NCBI GenBank assembly: GCA_021772895.1
Contig: JAJFLC010000012.1
Coordinates: forward strand, 1-64,000
Length of the DNA stretch: 64,000 nucleotides
From: Mariprofundaceae bacterium
Lineage (GTDB): Bacteria > Pseudomonadota > Zetaproteobacteria > Mariprofundales > Mariprofundaceae
Direction of reading: 5' to 3'
Part shown: positions 1 through 3,107 of the stretch, piece by piece
Layout: every line of letters begins with the position of its first letter
How positions within the stretch are numbered: the stretch's first letter is position 1
The notes under the pieces: generated by a model
Databases searched by the model: none
Told to the model about the DNA's origin: nothing
What the model saw: only the letters and a program-made list of their open reading frames with translations
Translations under genes and position numbers: made by a program

Positions 1-897
<897 letters not shown>

Positions 898-1117
898 AAG
901 CTATATTATTATATTAATGATCCCAACATTGATCACAAAGATCAACTCAATTGAATAAACGTTAACGTTCATTGCTGAACTTGTTTACGCAATCAAAGTC
1001 AATCAATCAATGATTGGAAAGACTCGATGCGTCCACAGTTCAAATAAAAACTACTAATTGTAAAGAACAAATCCGCGGCCGTTTCTGCTTGCGCCCAACT
1101 GGGCTCGATCCGGCTGC
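898..1117 (-). other. rRNA operon leader region
   Basis: This is the transcribed leader between the nearest rRNA promoter and the 16S 5' end, about 220 bp. It has no credible coding frame. It contains a boxA-like antitermination element (1056-1069) and an AT-rich stretch near 900-1020 with short TCAATCAATCAATGATTGA-type repeats. That stretch may form part of the precursor processing stem, but the 3' partner is outside the window. Confidence 0.7.
1056..1069 (-). promoter_or_regulatory. boxA-like antitermination element of rrn leader
   Basis: On the minus strand the segment reads TGTTCTTTACAATT, close to the rRNA boxA consensus (TGCTCTTTAACAATT in E. coli leaders, from established knowledge). 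It lies about 160 nt before the 16S 5' end and downstream of all four candidate promoters, which is where the NusB/NusE-loaded antitermination site is expected. Confidence 0.75.
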
Positions 1118-1126
1118 GGGCGGCGA

Positions 1127-1154
1127 ATCATATCTCCGCCGTTTGAGGTGTCAA
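1127..1154 (-). promoter_or_regulatory. rrn promoter P1 (nearest 16S)
   Basis: On the minus strand TTGACA (1154-1149) is followed by a 16-bp spacer and TATGAT (1132-1127). A GC-rich discriminator, TCGCCGCCC, follows immediately. Such discriminators are typical of growth-rate- and ppGpp-controlled stable-RNA promoters. This is the copy closest to consensus. Confidence 0.88.
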
Positions 1155-1230
1155 CCTCTAATTCAAACACGCTCTTCGCAGTATGTTTTCAGCGCCTCTC
1201 AGCGCGGCTTCCTCTTGCGAAGGGCGGCGA

Positions 1231-1258
1231 ACATTATCGCCACATTTCGGTGCGTCAA
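1231..1258 (-). promoter_or_regulatory. rrn promoter P2
   Basis: Minus strand TTGACG (1258-1253), 16-bp spacer, TAATGT (1236-1231), then the same TCGCCGCCC discriminator as P1. The A-rich sequence upstream of the -35 (AGTTTAAACAAAGG) could act as an UP element. Confidence 0.82.
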
Positions 1259-1333
1259 CACCTTTGTTTAAACTTCCTTTCCAAGCTCAATTCAATGCCT
1301 TTCGGCGTCACCTTGTCTTGTCGAGGGCGGCGA

Positions 1334-1361
1334 ACATTATCGCCACATTTCGGCGCGTCAA
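1334..1361 (-). promoter_or_regulatory. rrn promoter P3
   Basis: Minus strand TTGACG (1361-1356), 16-bp spacer, TAATGT (1339-1334) and the TCGCCGCCC discriminator. It sits in the repeat unit nearly identical to that of P2 and has the same A-rich upstream sequence. Confidence 0.82.
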
Positions 1362-1436
1362 CACCTTTGTTTAAACTTCCTTTCCAAGCTCAATTCAATG
1401 CCTTTCGGCGTCATCTTGTCTTGTCGAGGGCGGCGA

Positions 1437-1464
1437 ACATTAGCGGCGCCTTTCCGCACGTCAA
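1437..1464 (-). promoter_or_regulatory. rrn promoter P4 (most distal)
   Basis: Minus strand TTGACG (1464-1459), 16-bp spacer of different sequence from the other copies, TAATGT (1442-1437) and the same discriminator. Upstream it diverges from the repeat and runs into the 3' flank of the bepA-like gene about 100 bp away. Conservation of the hexamers and discriminator while the spacer has changed argues for function. Confidence 0.78.
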
Positions 1465-1559
1465 CACCTTTGTTGTCCACATCAATCGATCTGTCGCTCA
1501 CACGCCAAATTTGCGATGTTTTACCGCTCGACAAACCCTTCAAAATGACAGTATTAAAG

Positions 1560-3107
1560 CTAACGAACCACCTGTGCGCGAATGACGCTGACACGCAGTG
1601 TATTCAATTGTTCATGAGTCAACACACCCGCCAGACCCAAATCGAACAGCTGCTGACTGCCGGAGGCAACTGTGCCTCGCAATGAACGCTGCATCTGCTG
1701 CACCTGCCCGGCTGCACTCGTAAATTGCACCAGCACCACCAGCGCTTCGACACTCCTAGGCGTCGGGTTACTGATCTGGGCAACCACCCTGCCTCGGGCA
1801 TCCTGCCCTGTTCTGACCTGAATGTATTTACCCGGGTTGTCTTTCAGATCAAGATCCACCAGTGCGCCATAGGCCTGTTTGCCAAGCTCGCCCTGGCTGG
1901 CTGCCACCTTGGCATAATAGGCCTTGGCCTCATCCAGACGCCCAGCTTTACGGGCCAAATCCCCTAACGCGTTATAGGCATCGGCTGTAGGCAACAATTG
2001 AACACTGTGCTCCAGGTCAGAGCGAGCCTGTCCGGCAAAGTTCAAACGCTCATTCACTTTACCGCGCTGTAGATAATAATAAAAGAAGTTTGGATTCAGA
2101 CGAGCCGCTTTATTATATTGTTGGACTGCGCCTTTCAACCGGCTGCCTTTCTGCTCAATATCCCCCATCAAACCGTAGAACTGCGCCTCTTTCGGTTCCA
2201 GTGCGACCGCTCGCTGTGCCAAACGCTTGGCCATGTCCACATCACCCTTAGCCAGTGCTTTACGCCCTTTATCGTAGGCATCATAAGCAGGCTTGGTTCG
2301 TATCAAATGCACAGTCTTTAAGCGGTACCTCTCCACGCCCTGATCTCCGCCCTTGGGCAAGGTCGCCAGTAAGCTGACATTATTCTGTACCCGCTCCTGC
2401 GATGGCGGATGACTTGCAAAAAGGCCACTCAACCAGTCCTGCCGCTTTCCCTCAGAGAGTTTGACAAACGTTCGCTGTAAATCCACCGCTCCTTGAGGAT
2501 CATAACCCGCACGCACCATGTACTGCATACCGTAATAATCTGACTCACGTTCGGCATCACGACCAAACTTCTGACTGATCAGCTGTGCTCCAATACCCGC
2601 CCCCAACTGCGCCACGTTGGCATAATCTTTTCCCTGCGTAGCAATCACCGTTCCCATTACCGCCGTCTGCAGCAACATACCCTTCGACATATTCTGTGCG
2701 CCATGTCTGGCTGCCGCGTGCACAATTTCATGCCCAAGCACGGCCGCAAGTTCAGATTCACTTTTTAATTCTGTTAACAGACCACGATTAATTGATATTT
2801 TACCGCCGGGCAGAGCCCACGCATTCGGAACAGAGTTATTAAGCACTTTAAATTCATACGGAAGTTTTCTATCACTGACTGCGGCCAGGCGGTGGCCCAC
2901 CTGACTGACATAAGCAGTCAACTCCCGATCAACGACGTAATCACCACCCTGAGATTGCCGTGCTGGCGAATATTGTTGCGCTCCAATAGCAAGTTCCTGC
3001 TTTTCGCTCACCAGACTTAATTCATTTTTCCCTGTCACAGGATTGGTGGCACAGCCGGATAAGAACCCCACAACAAACCATAGTACAAGCAGTTCTCTTT
3101 TCACCAT
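1560..3107 (-). CDS. bepA: M48 family metalloprotease with TPR domain (BepA/YfgC-like lipoprotein)
   Basis: The 515-residue product has an N-terminal hydrophobic segment ending in a lipobox (LSGC, Cys19), so it is probably a lipoprotein. An M48 peptidase domain follows with the zinc motif HEIVH at residues 126-130 and a downstream acidic ligand region (ERESDYYGM). The C-terminal half holds several TPR-like helical pairs (about 275-410). The family acts in the periplasm on outer-membrane protein assembly: BepA degrades stalled LptD and BAM substrates. E. coli BepA has a cleaved signal and is a little shorter, so orthology is likely rather than certain. The gene reads towards the rRNA promoters. 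I see no strong terminator in the 80 bp between them. Confidence 0.88.
   Translation of the reverse strand: MVKRELLVLWFVVGFLSGCATNPVTGKNELSLVSEKQELAIGAQQYSPARQSQGGDYVVDRELTAYVSQVGHRLAAVSDRKLPYEFKVLNNSVPNAWALPGGKISINRGLLTELKSESELAAVLGHEIVHAAARHGAQNMSKGMLLQTAVMGTVIATQGKDYANVAQLGAGIGAQLISQKFGRDAERESDYYGMQYMVRAGYDPQGAVDLQRTFVKLSEGKRQDWLSGLFASHPPSQERVQNNVSLLATLPKGGDQGVERYRLKTVHLIRTKPAYDAYDKGRKALAKGDVDMAKRLAQRAVALEPKEAQFYGLMGDIEQKGSRLKGAVQQYNKAARLNPNFFYYYLQRGKVNERLNFAGQARSDLEHSVQLLPTADAYNALGDLARKAGRLDEAKAYYAKVAASQGELGKQAYGALVDLDLKDNPGKYIQVRTGQDARGRVVAQISNPTPRSVEALVVLVQFTSAAGQVQQMQRSLRGTVASGSQQLFDLGLAGVLTHEQLNTLRVSVIRAQVVR

Follow-up and report, generated by a model that had tools for sequence, protein, structure and literature searches.

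The question raised by this locus is what four evenly spaced promoters are doing in front of a single rRNA operon. The window, meaning the whole 64,000-nucleotide stretch of DNA that was analysed, comes from a Mariprofundaceae genome (Zetaproteobacteria). It begins with its contig inside a minus-strand 16S gene, the 5' end of which lies near position 897, while an M48-peptidase gene (1560-3107) bounds the promoter region on its upstream side. Between the two genes are four sigma-70-type cores, all on the minus strand and directed at the 16S gene (Table 1). Each consists of TTGACR, a 16-bp spacer, TAATGT or TATGAT, and then TCGCCGCCC, and the cores follow one another at 103, 103 and 104 bp. Exact matches to the pattern TTGAC-N17-TANNNT-TCGCCGCC are found on the minus strand at 1119-1154, 1223-1258, 1326-1361 and 1429-1464, with no fifth match in the 64-kb window even when up to two mismatches are allowed. 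In shuffled sequence the core turned up 0.06 times on average and never more than once, against the four exact cores observed, and a chance origin was ruled out on that basis. With at least two same-direction cores before a 16S gene, the region probably represents a tandem multi-promoter rRNA operon control region.

Table 1. Positions of the rRNA promoters and leader elements in the window, with the inverted repeats and hairpins discussed in the text
Feature	Position	Strand	Details or basis
16S rRNA gene, 5' part, target of the promoters	1..897	-	Rfam RF00177, 874 bits
boxA-like element TGTTCTTTACAA of the rRNA leader	1058..1069	-	downstream of all four promoters; sequence
boxB-like hairpin GCCCAGTTGGGC in the leader	1093..1104	-	sequence and fold
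Promoter unit 1 (proximal)	1118..1154	-	-35 TTGACA 1149-1154, -10 TATGAT 1127-1132, discriminator TCGCCGCCC 1118-1126
Inverted repeat at unit 1 -35, GAGG-TTGACA-CCTC	1145..1158	-	covaries across the family
Promoter unit 2 (inner)	1222..1258	-	-35 TTGACG 1253-1258, -10 TAATGT 1231-1236, discriminator 1222-1230
103-bp tandem repeat	1222..1474		copies 1222-1324 and 1325-1427, partial third 1428-1474 over unit 4 core
Inverted repeat at unit 2 -10, GGCGA-TAATGT-TCGCC	1226..1241	-	sequence and fold; same for unit 3 at 1329-1344
Inverted repeat at unit 2 -35, GGTG-TTGACG-CACC	1249..1262	-	sequence comparison and fold
GNRA-loop hairpin GCC-GAAA-GGC between units 3 and 2	1297..1306	-	predicted fold; copy between units 4 and 3 at 1400-1409
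Promoter unit 3 (inner)	1325..1361	-	-35 TTGACG 1356-1361, -10 TAATGT 1334-1339, discriminator 1325-1333
Promoter unit 4 (first, most distal)	1428..1464	-	-35 TTGACG 1459-1464, -10 TAATGT 1437-1442, discriminator 1428-1436

The four units do not resemble one another equally. Tandem Repeats Finder reports a period of 103 with 2.5 copies at 93%, and only two of 103 positions (1250 and 1311) distinguish 1222-1324 from 1325-1427, the stretches that hold units 2 and 3. Units 4 and 1 have hexamers, 16-bp spacer and discriminator intact, with 62-nt upstream flanks in which only 20-25 positions match the other units, and unit 1 is conserved in other Zetaproteobacteria. The repeat runs into the unit 4 core and ends there, which is the pattern expected from recombination between two promoter cores. 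An initial annotation of this DNA had already described four promoters aimed at the 16S gene, their hexamers, spacer and common discriminator, two differences between the middle units, and outer promoters that keep hexamers and spacing amid diverged flanks, and all of these statements proved correct. The exact number of units may be an underestimate, as short reads could collapse near-identical units. An assembly artefact as the source of the array itself was ruled out, since other genera have such arrays, and one of them (genome G014, locus L003) carries three such units at 103/104 bp.

Loci of relatives were retrieved by homology to the region and not by the promoter motif, and arrays of one to four units with the same core were found before 16S across the family. 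Such promoters precede the gene in 17 of the 17 loci that hold a 16S start, with the proximal unit 242-299 bp before 16S, and the period of the arrays varies by genus, at about 86-94, 97-106, 113-115 and 134-153 bp. The number of units also differs between rrn copies within genome G093, where one locus (L241, G093:C101) has four units, three of them, including the proximal one, near-identical at 113-114 bp, and the other (L219, G093:C29) has two units 139 bp apart. In a further genome, two rrn upstream regions lie 16 kb apart on one contig (L025 and L008, G033:C2), with three and two detected units, respectively. A literature search found nothing on the rrn promoters of Mariprofundus.

Several promoters drive one rRNA operon in Streptomyces coelicolor (rrnD) and in Vibrio natriegens (rrn). 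The E. coli rrn operons have two tandem promoters with distinct roles, P1 for growth and P2 for basal expression (PMC4696680). They are alike in having several sigma-70 promoters with a GC-rich discriminator before 16S and then a boxB/boxA leader, whereas the cores found here, as many as four, are all of one type, the inner ones arising from tandem duplication. The mycobacterial rrnA hypervariable multiple promoter region (HMPR), with two promoters in M. tuberculosis and five in M. chelonae, is also similar in that promoter number differs between species and promoter duplication is invoked (PMC10218544). In the zetaproteobacterial arrays too, unit number varies between relatives and the units within an array are paralogous. 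The mycobacterial system belongs to another phylum and has another promoter layout, the two being likened by description and not by sequence, and the source passages describing it do not mention covarying read-through hairpins (PMC10218544).

A motif scan covered one genome per species and sought two cores 85-115 bp apart; since it requires this motif, the matches listed give a lower bound and no frequency. Besides Zetaproteobacteria, the matches listed include Pseudomonas, Halopseudomonas, Thalassolituus, Marinobacter and others, often with three or four cores. In nearly every locus read the tandem pair lay before 16S or near a contig end, where rRNA breaks assemblies. The rrn arrays of these gammaproteobacteria share with the window a layout of two to four cores, a 16-bp spacer, a KCGCC discriminator and a spacing of mostly 80-115 bp, but their neighbouring units share little outside the core. 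Four evenly spaced rrn promoters are, as such, ordinary. Unit number does vary between relatives, but four evenly spaced copies could not be upheld as special, as three or four rrn promoters about 100 bp apart are widespread in gammaproteobacteria and mycobacterial rrnA has up to five (PMC10218544). Less ordinary here are the near-identical neighbouring units and the stretches between promoters, which look built to fold as RNA.

Neighbouring units were compared over 60 nt outside the core, and those at least 75% alike were regarded as near-identical. Near-identical neighbours occur in ten zetaproteobacterial loci of at least seven lineages and with different periods, three of the ten being rrn copies from M. 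erugo alone, and in none of the 61 gamma-type arrays among the matches listed. For example, unit 3 of the window is 97% like unit 2 in a gapped comparison and no more than 85% like units from other species, the ceiling for the middle units being 88%, in agreement with the earlier proposal of a recent amplification, now seen as a lineage-specific duplication or homogenisation of the middle units. Neighbours are likewise closest to each other in other genera, which suggests that inner units have been duplicated or homogenised independently more than once. Orthologues of inner units exist in other genera (83-88%), so that the inner unit appears to be old and only the extra copy recent, while the first and proximal units retain their own flanks. 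Judged by these comparisons, unit duplication or homogenisation is recurrent in zetaproteobacterial arrays, unlike the gamma arrays among the matches listed. The first and proximal promoters would both be old and flank inner units that multiply and shrink through recombination between near-identical cores. Here rRNA promoter number changes through plain duplication of units, and does so among iron oxidisers, not in the fast growers for which multiple rrn promoters are usually discussed.

Indirect evidence on whether the upstream units are used came from the folding of the DNA between the promoters. In Zetaproteobacteria, folding was scored for the 52 nt that precede each -35. The mean z per locus is -1.93 for units with another promoter upstream of them and -0.13 for the first promoter of those arrays (paired p = 5e-6 over 31 loci, which include non-independent, related genomes as well as loci that are copies from a single genome and were counted more than once). 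A weaker effect is seen in gamma arrays (z of -0.81 downstream and -0.39 at the first promoter, p = 0.02). Hairpins with GNRA loops, counted with stems of at least four pairs, numbered 31 against 4.0 expected, an excess of about eightfold. In the window, for which the structures come from single-sequence folds, the predicted read-through transcript across unit 2 has the GCC-GAAA-GGC hairpin, a hairpin that loops out the -35 and another that loops out the -10. In Mariprofundus, four loci (L009, L008, L025 and L090) have a two-tier GCAA-capped stem-loop between rrn promoters, just before the proximal -35, with altered stems ATCC/GGAT, ACCC/GGGT and TAAC/GTTA and predicted folds that reach a z of -4.7.

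Since the folding is found mainly downstream of the first promoter, it is inferred that the upstream promoters fire and that the read-through leader is selected as RNA. Only three of the six positions of TAATGT fit the -10 consensus, and units 2-4 could therefore be weak promoters. It is quite unlikely, on the analysts' weighing, that the proximal unit alone, or with the first, is active and that the inner units are mostly silent by-products of repeat slippage. Such silence would fit the weaker TAATGT of the inner and first units beside the TATGAT of unit 1, as well as the spread of unit number across the family, by which extra units are dispensable over evolution. Inner cores and discriminators are nevertheless intact in many species despite diverged flanks, and the position of the inter-unit folding fits transcription from the upper units.

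A second line of evidence for selection as RNA deals with the inverted repeats around the hexamers. Five pairs of complementary arms, changing together, flank the proximal -35 (GAGG/CCTC, AAGG/CCTT, AAGC/GCTT, GGGC/GCCC and GGTA/TACC), to which inner units add GGTG/CACC and GGGG/CCCC. In an alignment of 20 proximal units, both sides had changed in 11 cells, compared with 2.4 in shuffles. Allowing for relatedness, the number of independent arm changes is closer to four or five, and little covariation is seen in slid controls. The -35 inverted repeat peaks in proximal units (11 of 32 distinct contexts, 1.6 expected), followed by inner units (5 of 28, 1.0 expected), and weakest in first units (3 of 41, 0.8 expected); it occurs in none of the 134 contexts from gamma arrays among the matches listed. 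By these counts, from a pattern spotted in and then tested on largely overlapping data, the -35 sits in the loop of a covarying hairpin, predicted from sequence, in many of the proximal units and in some inner ones.

The same repeats might instead act as DNA, as a protein site or through supercoil-driven extrusion, which is considered unlikely. They surround both hexamers, a few first units also have GGTG/CACC, and in zetaproteobacterial arrays sense and antisense fold equally well, the structure signal there not being strand-specific. Against a protein site, the arms vary yet stay complementary. The signal, moreover, increases from first to proximal units, and near-complementary arms contain, in small numbers, G-T mismatches that rrn-sense RNA would tolerate as G-U, neither of which favours a role as DNA. 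In gamma arrays (among L082-L161), the cores of downstream units fold better in the sense than in the antisense direction (p = 8.5e-5), hinting at selection as RNA there also.

The whole is probably best explained as an rRNA operon control region with four sigma-70 promoters of the same type, in which the transcribed stretches between promoters are selected as RNA. RNA polymerase very probably binds at each core and initiates about 7 nt after the -10. Transcripts from upper units would read through the lower units, pass boxB and boxA and enter 16S, and the units may add or share initiations. Promoter dosage might tune rRNA output, as the initial annotation proposed. The inter-promoter stretches, being transcribed, would hence be selected as RNA, with GNRA-capped hairpins and, in many of the proximal but only some of the inner units, with the -35 and -10 in hairpin loops. 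The boxA element recruits the Nus antitermination complex, which opposes Rho (PMC4807359). Unit 4 transcripts would run for a few hundred bases before gaining boxA protection, and until the complex is recruited at boxA the hairpins may protect this long leader against Rho and nucleases. More tentatively, and with somewhat less than even confidence, multi-promoter rRNA regions may in general carry a selected RNA architecture, the same sequence acting as a promoter in the DNA and, once transcribed, as a structured leader that may shield against Rho, such that duplication copies both. Selection for RNA structure downstream of the first promoter would offer a sequence-only test for the use of upstream promoters, and if the hairpins have a function, the DNA between rrn promoters ought also to be studied as RNA.

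The leader and the discriminators tie the region to known rRNA control. The boxA-like TGTTCTTTACAA is conserved in relatives. DksA and RelA/SpoT are encoded in this genome, and the GC-rich TCGCCGCCC shared by all units makes the promoters likely targets of ppGpp and DksA. Inspection by eye gave no convincing match to a Fis site at the inter-unit hairpin. The 5S and 23S genes were not found in this genome's assembly, an absence that says nothing on rrn copy number, since at least one genome (L211, G079:C1) has N in place of rRNA from inside the leader onward.

It is highly improbable that the repeat is an array for binding a protein or serving as UP elements in which the promoter-like cores are incidental. 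A/T-rich tracts do lie ahead of each -35, but every unit has the exact 16-bp spacing and intact hexamers, oriented towards 16S, and related sites precede rpsO and tRNA genes. These GGCGGCG-type sites of the same genome, before rpsO and a tRNA-Thr-Tyr-Gly-Thr cluster, together with DksA and RelA/SpoT, fit a control by growth as in E. coli, and so agree with the preferred reading of the units as rRNA promoters. The first is a promoter-like site of the GGGCGGCGAA type at about 1235-1249 of L047 (G000:C19:210134), just 5' of rpsO, the gene for ribosomal protein S15, and shares the rRNA discriminator. The second, a variant element GGGCGGCGCATCATA near 2363 of L048 (G000:C4:379362), lies directly 5' of the tRNA-Thr, -Tyr, -Gly and -Thr genes.
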